A stretch of 64,000 bases of DNA from Endozoicomonas sp. G2_2. Its GTDB lineage: Bacteria > Pseudomonadota > Gammaproteobacteria > Nevskiales > Salinisphaeraceae. The translations under genes were made by a program, and so were the position numbers. The stretch is from contig NZ_JAGHQU010000010.1 in assembly GCF_017744135.1 (NCBI RefSeq), positions 1 to 64,000 of the forward strand, written 5' to 3'. Below the pieces are notes generated by a model. It did not search any database. It had not been told where the DNA came from and saw nothing but the letters and a program-made list of their open reading frames with translations. Each line of letters starts with the position of its first letter. Within the stretch, counting starts at the first letter, position 1. Shown piece after piece: positions 7,681 to 26,323 of the stretch.

Positions 7681-10600
7681 ATGAAGATTTCGAGTTCGAA
7701 AGGAGCTCGACTGCGCCAGCAGGTGCGCATCGCGCTTCTTGGTACGACCTTGGCCGTCACGGCGCCTGGCGCCATGGCTGCGACGATCACCGTCAACTCA
7801 ACGGGCGATATGTCAGGCGAAGGCCAATGCACGCTCCGCGATGCGATCACGGCTGCGAACGGCAATACGGCGACCGCCGGTTGCACGGCTGGGGATGATA
7901 ACAACGACACCATCATGTTCGGCGAGAGCGTGGCAGGCAGCACGATCACGCTCGGCGGCACCGCGCTGCCCACGATCATGTCCGGCTCCACGCTCGTGAT
8001 CGACGCGATGGCGAGCGAAGACGACGACAGCACTGCCGGCGTCACAATCGACGCGAATGAGCAGAGCCGGATTTTCATCAATCAGGGCGAACTCACTCTG
8101 AACGACCTGACGCTGATCAACGGTGTGGCCGATACGGCAGACGACGACGACACTAACGGCGATGCCCGCTTCGACCGCTCAGGCGGCGCGATCCTCAACC
8201 TTGGCGGTACGCTCATTGTTAGCGGCGGCGCCATGAACAACAATACCGCAGATCGCGCGGGCGGCGCGATCGAAGTGGCTACCGGTGGTACCGTTGAAGG
8301 TGACGATTCGGCGATCGATAATCTCCGAGTGACCCTCGACAACGTCAATTTCTCCGGTAACAACGCAGGCGTGAACCCCGGCAATGGCGGCGCGCTGCAC
8401 GTGTCCGGCGCTGGCGATATTCAAGTCAACGGCGGCACGTTCAGCAATAACATCTCCGAAGAAGGCGGCGCGCTGTGGAACAATCAGGGCACGATGACCG
8501 TTTCCGATGCGACCTTCACTGCGAACGTCGCTAACGGCGCGGCCCCCGCTTCAACGCCAGCAGAGGGTGGCCTCGGTGGCGGCGCGATCTTCGGCCAGGT
8601 TGACGGTGCCAACGGCACGATCGTGATCACAGGCTCCATGTTCACCGGTAATATGGCCGGTAACGAGGAAGACGGCGAGGGCGACAGCTCAGCTTCCGGT
8701 GGCGCGATTCTTGCCGGCGACGGCACCACGCTTGATGTCACGAACTCGGTGTTTCGCGACAACAGTGCGCGTCGTGCCGGTGGCGCGATCGAAGTGCTTC
8801 CAGGCAGCACCACCACGCTGGACAACGTCACCGGGACCGGCAACGACGCTGGTCAAAACCCGGGTAACGGCGGCTTCCTTCATGTAACGGGCGACGGCAA
8901 CGTGGCGGTTACCGGCGGCAGCTACGCACGTAATACCGCGGTTGAAGGCGGCGCGTTCTGGAATAACCAGGGCGAGATGACGCTCACCGGCGTGTCGATC
9001 GTCAATAACGAGGCGACCGGCGCGGAGGCGACCCAGGGCGGCGGCGGTATCTACGCCGAAGGTAACGCCGAGGGCGATAGTGGCACGCTGACGATCAGCG
9101 ACAGCCGTATTGCCATGAACAAGGCATCCGGTACCTCCGGCAGTGGTGGCGGTATTCTGGTCAGCCCGAATGCGACCGCGAACATTACCAACACCCGTAT
9201 CGAGGCCAATCAGGCCAATCGTGCCGGTGGCGGGATCGAGAATGCCGGCGGTACGGTCACGCTCGACGGCGTGACGCTGGGCGGCGAGAGCGACGCGCAG
9301 GGTAACGTCATCGCCCCGAATCCGAATCCGGGCAACGGCGGCGGCCTGCATATCGGCGGCGCGGGTTCGACCACCATCACCAATACCGCGGTCGGCTACA
9401 ACCAGGCCGTCGAAGGTGGCGGTTTGTGGAACTCGGCCGGTGGCGCGCTGAGCGTGACGAATACCACCGTGTCCGACAACAGCGCCGATACCGGCGCCGG
9501 TGTCTATCAGGACGGTGGTGACGGCGGCAGCGTAACGGGTGAAGGCATCTCCCTGAGCTACGCCTCGGTGGTCAACAACAACGGCGTGGGTGTGGATGCC
9601 GGCAACGACGCCGCGCCCGAAGACGCGTATACGATCACCAACAGCCTTATTGCCGCTAACGACACCAACCTGGGCGAGGGTATCGATGCGTCTGACGAGG
9701 ACGGCAACGTCGTCGGTGACGCCTCGCTCCTCGATGGCATGTATCGCCTGTATGGCGGCCCGACCGCTACCCAGCCGCTGGCTATGGACAGCGACGCCGT
9801 GGACACGAACGGCGCCTGTAGTTCGACGGATACGGACCAGCGCGGCGCCGATCGTGATTTCGATGTGCCGGATGTCGACAACGGCGGGACCTGCGACTCG
9901 GGCGCCTATGAACTCACCGACGACCCGGTCGTACAGGTGGCCATGCTCGATCTCGGCGATGTCGTGCTCGGCGAAGACGACACCGAGGCTGCTGTGCTCG
10001 GCTTCACGCTCACCAACAACGGTGAAGAAAGCGTGACCGTCGGCGGAATTTCGGGCTATGTCGATCGTGACGACATGCTGCCCGCGGGCGTGGATCTGAC
10101 CGAGTTCGACCTCACCGTCTATGCCGACAGCAATGACAACGGCAGCTACGACAGCGGTAGCGACATGAGCGTCGGCAGCGGTTCGCTTGACGACAACGGC
10201 TCCACCTTCACCATCGACTTCAACGGTGGCGCGGGTGAGTCCATCGGCGCCGGCGACAGTGTGAGCTACTTCCTCGTGGCGAGCCCGAGCGGCGACAGCC
10301 AGGCGCCGGCAACGGTCGGCGTGACGGCCCTCGATGGCGATGCACTCAAGGCAGTCTATGCCGGCGGTGCGCTGCTGGCCCTGCTGAGCCTCGTATCGGT
10401 GGGCGGCATGCGGCGTCGTACCCAACTGCTGCTGATCGTGGCCGCGCTTGCGCTCACGCTCACCGCCTGCAGCGATAGCGACAGCGACGACGATCGCAAC
10501 GTCAATATCGGCCAGCCGGACAACGATGCGATGGGGCAAGGGCAGGTGAGCTTCACGCTGCGCCAGCTCAACGTCGTGGCCGGTGGCACCGGAATCGTGA

Positions 10601-10683
10601 TCGGTGACGGACTGCCGGTGTCCGGCCCGGTGGTGTCTTTCGAGATGCCCTCGGACGACGACTCGATGTCCGACGACGGCTGA
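7681..10683 (+). CDS. Large exported CSLREA/choice-of-anchor-Q beta-helix protein with lipoprotein-like C-terminus
   Basis: 1000 residues. Start ATG 7681 is 8 bases after GAAGGGG. Residues 1-33 form a signal peptide ending AMA. CTLRDAITAAN (50-60) is the CSLREA-type motif, followed by three tandem Gly/Asn-rich units (about 8176-8540, 8698-9030, 9140-9495) with repeated AGGAIE, NPGNGG and EGGALWNNQG elements, as in Pmp-like right-handed beta-helices. About 690-750 matches the choice-of-anchor Q end (TDQRGADR, CDSGAYE). A second beta-rich domain follows. Residues 890-930 hold two hydrophobic stretches split by GGMRRRTQ; the second reads as a lipoprotein signal ending LTAC at Cys930. It is probably surface-exposed; ligand and role are unknown. 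The fused tail may be a separate gene with start at 10408. Confidence 0.85.
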   Translation: MKISSSKGARLRQQVRIALLGTTLAVTAPGAMAATITVNSTGDMSGEGQCTLRDAITAANGNTATAGCTAGDDNNDTIMFGESVAGSTITLGGTALPTIMSGSTLVIDAMASEDDDSTAGVTIDANEQSRIFINQGELTLNDLTLINGVADTADDDDTNGDARFDRSGGAILNLGGTLIVSGGAMNNNTADRAGGAIEVATGGTVEGDDSAIDNLRVTLDNVNFSGNNAGVNPGNGGALHVSGAGDIQVNGGTFSNNISEEGGALWNNQGTMTVSDATFTANVANGAAPASTPAEGGLGGGAIFGQVDGANGTIVITGSMFTGNMAGNEEDGEGDSSASGGAILAGDGTTLDVTNSVFRDNSARRAGGAIEVLPGSTTTLDNVTGTGNDAGQNPGNGGFLHVTGDGNVAVTGGSYARNTAVEGGAFWNNQGEMTLTGVSIVNNEATGAEATQGGGGIYAEGNAEGDSGTLTISDSRIAMNKASGTSGSGGGILVSPNATANITNTRIEANQANRAGGGIENAGGTVTLDGVTLGGESDAQGNVIAPNPNPGNGGGLHIGGAGSTTITNTAVGYNQAVEGGGLWNSAGGALSVTNTTVSDNSADTGAGVYQDGGDGGSVTGEGISLSYASVVNNNGVGVDAGNDAAPEDAYTITNSLIAANDTNLGEGIDASDEDGNVVGDASLLDGMYRLYGGPTATQPLAMDSDAVDTNGACSSTDTDQRGADRDFDVPDVDNGGTCDSGAYELTDDPVVQVAMLDLGDVVLGEDDTEAAVLGFTLTNNGEESVTVGGISGYVDRDDMLPAGVDLTEFDLTVYADSNDNGSYDSGSDMSVGSGSLDDNGSTFTIDFNGGAGESIGAGDSVSYFLVASPSGDSQAPATVGVTALDGDALKAVYAGGALLALLSLVSVGGMRRRTQLLLIVAALALTLTACSDSDSDDDRNVNIGQPDNDAMGQGQVSFTLRQLNVVAGGTGIVIGDGLPVSGPVVSFEMPSDDDSMSDDG

Positions 10684-10709
10684 TCCCGGGCGCTATAGCC
10701 ACAGCCATG

Positions 10710-10743
10710 CCGGACCGGGCTTCACGCCCGGTCCGGTTTTTTT
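10710..10743 (+). terminator. Strong terminator after the CSLREA gene
   Basis: Eleven-base-pair perfect stem CCGGACCGGGC / GCCCGGTCCGG (10710-10720 with 10726-10736), loop TTCAC, then seven T. Confidence 0.92.
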
Positions 10744-11095
10744 GCTTGTTCATCCAGCTTTGTGCGACGTCTTGAGGCACGAGTCGCCCTTAGACATTCA
10801 GCGCGGTTTCGTTTTTGTCCAAGACGCACGCTCCGCGCGTTCAGTAGCGTCGTCGGCCTGACGCCGATCGCGCATTGCCTTGCCACGCAATAGCACTGTG
10901 GCCCACGTTCGCGCATCGACGTCGACACGTGCCGTGGGCCGCTGCGACGACTTCGTGCGCCTTGGCCGTGGCGCAGCGCTGCGGCGTGGCCGCTGATCCA
11001 ACGCTCTGCCCCGGCTCGAATGTACGGGCGCCACGCCGCAGCCGTGGACGGCGCGACGCATCCTGGGGCGCAGCGCCATTGCCGGCGCTGCTCGA
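10744..11095. other. Non-coding stretch between convergent transcription units
   Basis: About 350 bases between the CSLREA terminator and the stop of the DUF5666 lipoprotein gene. Frames open here on both strands give arginine/cysteine-rich translations with no recognisable feature. I see no terminator for the minus-strand gene and no RNA-like structure. Confidence 0.5.
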
Positions 11096-25677: not shown

Positions 25678-25753
25678 GCGCCCGTAGCTCAGGGGATAGA
25701 GCAATGGCCTTCTAAGCCATCGGTCGCTGGTTCGAATCCAGCCGGGCGCGCCA
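25678..25753 (+). tRNA. tRNA-Arg (anticodon TCT)
   Basis: GCGCCCG/CGGGCGC acceptor, anticodon stem ATGGC/GCCAT with loop CTTCTAA giving TCT, encoded CCA (25751-25753). The CCA is itself the beginning of a perfect 17-bp hairpin (left arm 25751-25767, right arm 25774-25790), and the 3' 19 nt of the gene recur 182 bases downstream. It decodes the rare AGA codon. Confidence 0.96.
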
Positions 25754-26230
25754 TCACTAAAGGCCGCCGCAGCGCGGCCTTTAGTGATGGCTTATCCATC
25801 TAGTATTCGAACCAGCGACAATGATTAAGTATGGTTCGACGGATGCGCGCAGCGCATCCGAACAGTGCGGCGTCAGCCGCACTGGCCCGAAGGGTGAGCC
25901 GGCGCAGCCGGCGAATAATCCAGCCGGGCGCGCCATCACTAAAGGCGGCCGCAGCGCGGCCTTTAGTGATGGCCTATCCATCTAGTATTCGAACCAGCGA
26001 CAATAATTAAGCATGGTTCGACGGATGCGCGCAGCGCATCCGAACAGTGCGGCGCCAGCCGCACTGGCCCGAAGGGTGAGCAGGCGTGGCCTGCGAATAA
26101 TCCAGCTGGGCCTATCGATCTTGCATTCGAACCAGCGACAATGAACACGCATGGTTCGACGAATGCGCGCCACGCGTCCAAACGGGGCAGCGAGAGTCGC
26201 ACCAGCCCGCAGGGTGAGCGTTGCGGCCGG
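25735..26230 (+). repeat. tRNA-tail tandem repeat array (182-bp unit, about 2.7 copies), rtT-like
   Basis: Copy 1 runs 25735-25916, copy 2 25917-26098, and copy 3 from 26099, truncated and diverged. Each unit starts with AATCCAGCCGGGCGCGCCA, the exact last 19 nt of tRNA-Arg (copy 3 only its first part). Within a unit: hairpin H1 (CCATCACTAAAGGCC stem, lost from copy 3), an inverted T-arm (ATTCGAACCAGCGAC, 25805-25819), H2 (CGGATGCGC stem, 25840-25860), H3 (CAGTGCGGC stem, 25863-25884) and H4 (25898-25912). H4 is GCCGGC/GCCGGC in copy 1 and GCAGGC/GCCTGC in copy 2, a compensated pair change. E. coli tyrT has 178-bp repeats that also begin with 19 nt of the tRNA 3' end. Confidence 0.85.
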
Positions 26231-26323
26231 GCGTGCGTCAGCCCGAGTGCGTGCCACGCTGGCGTCCAGCACGCCGGTGCCCGTCGAGTGAAACGCAATT
26301 GAAACGCAATGCGAAACAAGGGG

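Follow-up and report, generated by a model that had tools for sequence, protein, structure and literature searches.

The closest described counterpart of the locus analyzed here is the rtT element of Escherichia coli (RttR; Rfam family RtT, RF00391), in which tandem units spaced by 178 bp lie directly behind a tRNA-Tyr gene in the tyrT-tyrV operon, each of them ending in a 19-nt copy of the tRNA 3' end that includes the CCA. The annotated rttR RNA is 171 nt long and, according to the annotation, its 3' end falls exactly at the CCA of the tail; to our knowledge, the function of this RNA is unsettled. In the tyrT-tyrV spacer of E. coli K-12 (L035, positions 1864-1995) a fourth RtT copy was observed (80.2 bits), which carries no ncRNA annotation in the record. 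A tRNA precursor spacer of E. coli, 3'ETS-leuZ, doubles as a regulatory RNA, acting on sRNAs as a sponge; unlike the array described below, it has neither tRNA copies nor tandem units, and we know of no sRNA target for that array.

Related elements are mentioned in several other sources. In Salmonella, rtT is given in a table row as a 175-bp VNTR (PMC2658671), which by analogy would count for recombination between units. The RtT structure contains a tandem G-A motif (PMC7657543), rttR is listed among REP-containing sRNAs (PMC12306157), and a pseudouridine mapping study of E. coli cites the rtT paper and refers in a legend to an RNA antisense to tRNA-Tyr near tpr (PMC11623569). The RtT-family RNAs Arrc20 and Arrc21 of Actinobacillus pleuropneumoniae, seen on northern blots, adjoin tRNA genes as the units analyzed here do but, unlike them, were reported upstream of their neighbours, tRNA-Asn and tRNA-Lys genes (PMC4986893). 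Palindromic BIME/REP-related repeats with some similarity to rtT, proposed to be attenuators, are situated upstream of protein genes (PMC2965389), whereas the strong own-genome matches of our unit all lie at tRNA or pseudo-tRNA arrays. Descriptions of host-matched RtT units behind other tRNAs were not recognised in searches of the open PMC literature, and neither host-matched tails nor inverted copies were found in the accessible portions of PMC4986893, PMC2965389, PMC7657543, PMC12306157, PMC2658671 and PMC11623569.

In the window (the whole 64,000-nt stretch of DNA that was analyzed, from Endozoicomonas sp. G2_2, contig NZ_JAGHQU010000010.1), a unit of about 182 bp is repeated directly behind tRNA-Arg(TCT), as the sequence-only reading had stated: TRF reported a period of 182 over positions 25735-26111 (94% matches), and a third copy follows at a spacing of 138 bp. 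The same reading had described two nearly identical copies, a decayed third and the 19-nt tail of the tRNA recurring in the units, all of which held: copies 1 and 2 (25735-25916 and 25917-26098) share 95% identity, copy 3 (26109-26219) retains 81% identity over 111 nt, and the tail AATCCAGCCGGGCGCGCCA is found once exactly and once in part (Table 1). Loss of hairpin 1 and of some of the tail has brought the third copy 44 bp nearer. Taken as an RNA, a unit starts with the first base behind the tRNA CCA and ends with the CCA of the tail copy that follows, the exact copy beginning at +164 from the tRNA. The elements of a unit are, in order, a long hairpin whose stem includes the tRNA CCA, the inverted T-arm copy ATTCGAACCAGCGAC, a linker, GGTTCGA, two GC-rich hairpins, GCCCGAAGGGTGAG, a small hairpin and the 19-nt tail. 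The 15-nt inverted copy, which is the complement of the T-stem 5' strand and T-loop of the host tRNA, is present in every unit and had not been mentioned in the sequence-only reading. The folding stability of the unit is not a product of chance (z = -9.3; none of 200 dinucleotide shuffles was equally stable).

A full unit consists of a conserved multi-hairpin core between two host-specific addresses: in front, the T-arm (5' strand and loop) is copied in inverted orientation, and at the rear the 3' end of the tRNA is copied directly, CCA included. The array is read here as RtT-type RNA units appended to tRNA-Arg(TCT), processed as part of its trailer and addressed to their host, with a probability of about 0.5 that reflects the steps that we infer. 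As a host-addressed RtT-type array behind a tRNA-Arg, it is a novel form of an already known RNA type.

Table 1. Features of the tRNA-Arg(TCT) array, in positions of the window.
Feature	Positions	Strand	Evidence
Host tRNA-Arg(TCT), CCA encoded	25678..25753	+	ARAGORN; Rfam tRNA 72.1 bits
RtT-type unit 1	25754..25935	+	R1 covariance model 25783-25935, 65.4 bits, E 4.3e-14
Hairpin 1 of unit 1, stem includes tRNA CCA (CCA...TGG)	25751..25790	+	inverted repeat; 8/14 pairs double-changed
Inverted T-arm copy ATTCGAACCAGCGAC, unit 1	25805..25819	+	inverted repeat; 15-nt match
GGTTCGA, sense T-arm 5' piece, pairs with inverted copy (invariant helix)	25833..25839	+	alignment
Core hairpin 2	25840..25860	+	inverted repeat; covariation alignment
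Core hairpin 3	25863..25884	+	inverted repeat; covariation alignment
Conserved GCCCGAAGGGTGA motif, RtT core	25885..25897	+	unit alignment; CM alignment
Core hairpin 4	25898..25912	+	covariation alignment
Tail, exact copy of last 19 nt of tRNA-Arg(TCT), ends CCA	25917..25935	+	sequence match
RtT-type unit 2, partial tail 26099-26111	25936..26111	+	R1 25972-26113, 59.0 bits
Inverted T-arm copy, unit 2	25987..26001	+	inverted repeat
Decayed unit 3, without hairpin 1 and tail	26109..26243	+	R1 26125-26243, 33.8 bits
Inverted T-arm copy, unit 3, still exact	26125..26139	+	sequence match

The gathering cut-off of Rfam RF00391 (45 bits) was not reached by the window copies, which scored 19.3 and 17.2 bits. 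Elsewhere in the own genome the same model gave 43.6 bits behind tRNA-Arg(CCG), its best score there, and 37.3 bits behind tRNA-Tyr; a Tyr-type unit of the same genus scored 75.4 bits, and matches above the cut-off were present in 11 of the 61 genomes in the relatives set and in 25 of the 370 from the class. A second covariance model, R1, was built from an alignment of 63 units, all from outside the window's family. It gave 93.1 bits on E. coli rttR, a score to be read with the note that the training genomes may include relatives of E. coli, and 80-92 bits on the other three E. coli copies; it also recovered the three window units (Table 1), the next-best stretch of the window scoring 12.9 bits. 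The array is therefore homologous to E. coli rtT, despite the Rfam gate. A wider RNA family had been suggested in the sequence-only reading, together with a covariance-model search, and the independent model bears this suggestion out, as it finds the window units and rttR alike and links them in core, structure and position; the likeness drawn there to E. coli units spaced by 178 bp behind a tRNA, each with a 19-nt tRNA tail, was confirmed in E. coli itself. Matches to R1 (E 0.001 or better) were present in at least 37 of 73 genomes of the order and at least 61 of 299 genomes of the phylum, 28 of these 61 lying outside the window's class; the counts are lower bounds, because the stricter search filters lose weak matches. 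We regard RtT homology and host matching of the units as near certain.

The core motifs common to the window array and E. coli rtT are GGTTCGA, the hairpins, CCCGAAGGGYGAG and ATCC. The window array differs from E. coli rtT in its host (tRNA-Arg instead of tRNA-Tyr), in the long hairpin that takes in the CCA, and in having the 15-nt complement of the host T-arm 5' strand and loop without a closing helix of the rtT type: in the covariance-model alignments, this helix (front complement plus tail) is interrupted at two of its five pairs in unit 1 and lacks its front strand in unit 2.

Stretches around 146 RF00391 matches in 75 genomes were examined, and the 98 matches (65 genomes) starting less than 100 nt behind a tRNA were taken as first units, with Gln (34), Ser (32), Tyr (19), Arg (11) and Glu (2) as hosts. 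The last 17 nt of the own tRNA were copied at the unit end with at most two mismatches in 87 of the 98 (73 exact), the best tail position lying near the end of the match; 36 distinct tails were represented, and the difference from tails of other amino acids averaged 6.5 positions. Mismatches to the own tRNA numbered 97, against a mean of 230 and a minimum of 190 in 10,000 permutations of tRNAs within amino acids. In a second set, made up of the 29 best loci newly found in the phylum search (13 from genomes outside the window's class), 23 ended in the tail of the upstream tRNA with at most two mismatches, none of them part of another tRNA gene, with Ser, Tyr, Gln, Arg, Asp (2 loci) and Lys (2 loci) as hosts. 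The match was missing in 11 of the 98 first units and in 6 of the 29 second-set loci. RtT-type units thus lie behind Tyr, Gln, Ser, Arg, Glu, Asp and Lys tRNAs, that is, behind at least seven kinds, both in the window's class and in phylum genomes beyond it, and a divergent unit is found behind Val. Three evenly spaced RtT matches were observed at L169 (G164) upstream of tRNA-Gln(TTG), with no tRNA ahead of them in the stretch examined.

The own genome was also surveyed independently of the RtT models, by a census of its 44 tRNA genes for tail copies with at most two mismatches. Copies were found 147-164 nt downstream of Arg(TCT), Arg(CCG), Arg(ACG), Arg(CCT), Gln(TTG) and Val(GAC), so that all four tRNA-Arg genes carry tail-bearing units; decayed units lie behind tRNA-Tyr and tRNA-Gln(CTG), and the other tRNA genes in the census had no tail copy. 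A tail match behind the first tRNA-Asp was discarded, being merely the next tRNA-Asp gene. The Val(GAC) element (L196) is perhaps a divergent branch, with a partial R1 match of 20.2 bits and no place among the own-genome RF00391 matches. Its 19-nt tail copy, at +154, is exact; inspection by eye shows 18 nt that are nearly complementary to the T-arm, and the element lies upstream of a long ORF resembling threonyl-tRNA synthetase (by eye).

The 182-bp unit had 19 matches in the own genome. Eleven of these (E 3.9e-6 or better, two being reverse-strand self-matches) were the strong ones at tRNA or pseudo-tRNA arrays; of the eight weak ones (20-31 nt), one falls inside the Tyr unit, while five further ones had no R1 match and no tRNA in the four that were scanned. 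The many dispersed, tRNA-unlinked intergenic copies expected of REP/BIME repeats were not found among the eleven strong matches and these six weak ones. At L020 (G000:C4), paralogous blocks, acetyltransferase-like (by eye) and DUF924 (58-1718 and 8952-10536, about 8.7 kb apart), each stand beside an RtT array, one of which lies at about 10680-11062; in one copy, the unit is joined to a truncated tRNA-Arg(CCT), and the array still has its tail and inverted T-arm. Contig G000:C28 ends inside the Arg(ACG) array and G000:C3 starts with an RtT match at 130-271, which is probably an assembly break at the array.

The inverted copy follows the host as well. In gap-free scoring against the 3' half of the tRNA, units reached 13.11 with their own tRNA, compared with a mean of 11.05 and a maximum of 11.70 in 10,000 same-amino-acid permutations, 8.6 with other amino acids and 6.7 for shuffled units. 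Tyr and Gln units favour the T3'/acceptor side (best matches averaging 9.9 and 10.5 of 14, vs. 8.5 and 8.8 on the T5' side), and as a result many of them can pair with their tail in a closing helix. In Arg units and some Ser units the inverted copy is complementary to the T5' strand and T-loop instead, the outer part of this segment being present only in the tRNA itself. The Arg(ACG) tRNA of the own genome has a different T-arm (GGGAG), and its unit shows the corresponding difference.

Host matching of this kind could also have a neutral origin, and this is a serious rival that we regard as fairly unlikely: the units would be functionless RtT-derived repeats left as scars in the DNA, with unequal crossing-over holding the tails to the tRNA sequence, and template switching at palindromes preserving the complementarity of the inverted copy. 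Template switching should copy the inner side of the segment too, and so the contrast between the two sides in the Arg units (n = 19) argues against it, the outer T5'/loop side being complementary at 13.9 of 14 positions and the inner T3'/acceptor side, nearer the hairpin axis, at 6.3, where chance gives 5.9. Also against neutrality, the 15-nt inverted copy is constant among TCT-type loci while the adjoining spacer varies, and R1 finds units outside the window's class too. Selection on the inverted copy is suggested by these comparisons, mainly by the contrast between outer and inner sides. A single one of the 19 Arg units, at tRNA-Arg(CCG) of L071 (G037), has an inner side that is largely complementary (11 of 14), so that the mirrored segment takes in much of the 3' half of the tRNA; a young or re-copied state is possible there.

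Fourteen genomes held a related tRNA-Arg(TCT) match, of which G011, cut inside the tRNA, was left out. A look behind this gene in relatives had been proposed in the earlier reading, and a unit or its remains was found at 9 of the 13 loci compared (the window and eight of the same genus), always with the 15-nt inverted copy unchanged. No unit was found in 900 nt behind the gene in G001, of the same genus, nor at L288 and L291, of another family of the order, nor within the 74 nt visible in G002, again of the same genus. The two same-genus absences count for scars, as do the variation of the arrays in copy number and decay among loci and a tRNA-to-tail conversion tract in G004, where the tRNA tract in the tail of unit 1 is longer, extends into the T-arm and points to recombination between tRNA and unit. 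Regarding the cores, the nearest neighbour shared the amino acid for 83 of 127 (mean 33 and maximum 55 in shuffles), in keeping with inheritance that is mainly vertical; some cores look exchanged, such as that of the G005 Arg(TCT) unit, which is nearest to the Tyr-type core of G008 and has kept its Arg addresses. Exact matches of the TCT-type motif alone occurred, among named genomes, in eight Salinisphaera records and one Lysobacterales MAG.

Covariation supports the structure of the unit, although not every count exceeded its shuffles, which ignore the relatedness of units. In the alignment of RtT-type units including the closing helix, 85.7% of cells were paired (63.1% shuffled), and all five pairs of the helix were changed on both sides in the units that close it with their tail; pairs changed on both sides numbered 16 overall vs. 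14.6 shuffled, a value reached by 60 of 500 shuffles. The 13 TCT-type units, from eight species, had 95.9% of cells paired (87.2% shuffled, at most 36.4% slid) and 16 of 49 pairs changed on both sides (8.2 shuffled), with 26 further pair types vs. 24.4 shuffled (142 of 500 shuffles reached that). Among these 13, hairpin 1 varies in sequence, with 99.5% of its cells paired and the double changes given in Table 1, and the T-arm helix is invariant. Wobble pairs, counted as a test of the proposed pairing with the tRNA, show a weak strand-specific bias overall (73 G-U to 42 A-C) and none in Arg units (9 to 9) or core hairpins (9 to 12). The latter are almost strictly Watson-Crick (803 pairs) without an excess of G-U, which again speaks for scars. 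Minimum-energy folding was rejected as evidence for an exchange between tRNA and tail, because the acceptor paired with the tail copy in 86 of 98 precursors and nearly as often with shuffled unit bodies (245 of 294).

A further alternative, in our view distinctly unlikely, takes the array as a transcription-end module, in which hairpin 1 would be a palindromic terminator or a guard of the 3' end that can include the CCA, the core being cargo; repetition of the hairpin together with the tail would provide read-through transcripts with a second and a third end. The strong pairing and double changes of hairpin 1 fit this account, as do terminator-like hairpins within 75 nt of the CCA in 8/11 Arg, 14/32 Ser, 11/34 Gln and 2/2 Glu first units (0.005-0.05 in shuffles; 0.5-2% for Arg, Ser and Gln) and the position of the CCA inside a stem of at least 9 pairs in 5/11 Arg first units (0.005 in shuffles). 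It is opposed by the result for Tyr, where 0/19 first units had such a hairpin, and by the TCT hairpins, which lack a long T run (at most TTT in the window) and are not among the eight Arg units mentioned; moreover, it leaves the inverted T-arm copy and the conserved core unexplained. A terminator scan gave no site in the window array, L208 or L065 and only minus-strand sites in L021; as the scan seems to miss T runs inside a longer stem, the shuffle-controlled script was used for the above counts. Nested attachment sites from tRNA-targeting integrations, which the sequence-only reading had raised, are very improbable: such sites typically show repeats of a tRNA 3' end, and integrases commonly target the T-arm, but there is no integrase among the seven neighbouring ORFs of the window that were scanned (six of housekeeping or metabolic families, namely CysRS, FolD, aldo/keto reductase, trigger factor, ClpP and ClpX, and a seventh without family), no match in 50,697 phage and 72,556 plasmid records (blastn, E 1e-3), and the unit interiors form a covarying RNA structure with compensatory changes.

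Returning to the reading of the array as trailer-processed, host-addressed RtT-type units, its transcription can be approached from the surrounding genes. The next tRNA behind all 19 Tyr first units is a tRNA-Gly(TCC) on the same strand, 58-1212 nt on, and transcription across most of these units is therefore likely. Where a terminator-like hairpin stands between tRNA and core, the core may be made only by read-through, which may be the natural condition producing Arg-type cores. At the window locus, the downstream tRNA-His has a TAGAAT promoter-like element within 110 nt upstream in 7/7 loci compared; with a promoter of its own predicted there, the array would not be inside an operon, and it is probably terminal in the Pro-Arg transcript.

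According to the proposed mechanism, the array would be read through as a 3' trailer of the tRNA, and processing of the kind that matures tRNA 3' ends would release RNA units ending in CCA. Unequal recombination between tails would add or remove whole units and keep the tails equal to the tRNA. With less certainty, the front address may pair with the host T-arm, either in the nascent precursor or in trans, the rear address may compete for the 5' strand of the tRNA acceptor, and the unit may interfere with, or delay, the maturation of precursors read past the tRNA end. In its boldest form, which we hold to be unlikely, RtT units would be host-addressed tRNA regulators, built from a T-arm complement and a spare 3' end, re-matched as the tRNA changes and switching the read-through precursor.

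Host addressing yields predictions as to which nucleotides pair with which tRNA and which compensatory changes would restore pairing, and natural experiments are at hand in a genome whose four tRNA-Arg genes are all followed by units fitted to their own tRNA, and in the same-genus species without the array. The presence of relatives behind at least seven tRNA kinds, with both direct and inverted copies tracking the host, makes the element a general tRNA appendage rather than a curiosity of one locus. If the regulatory proposal were true, a read-through precursor would be switched between the usual cloverleaf and a captured state in which the 3' half has been exchanged, and many Pseudomonadota would possess a built-in, isoacceptor-specific brake on tRNA supply.
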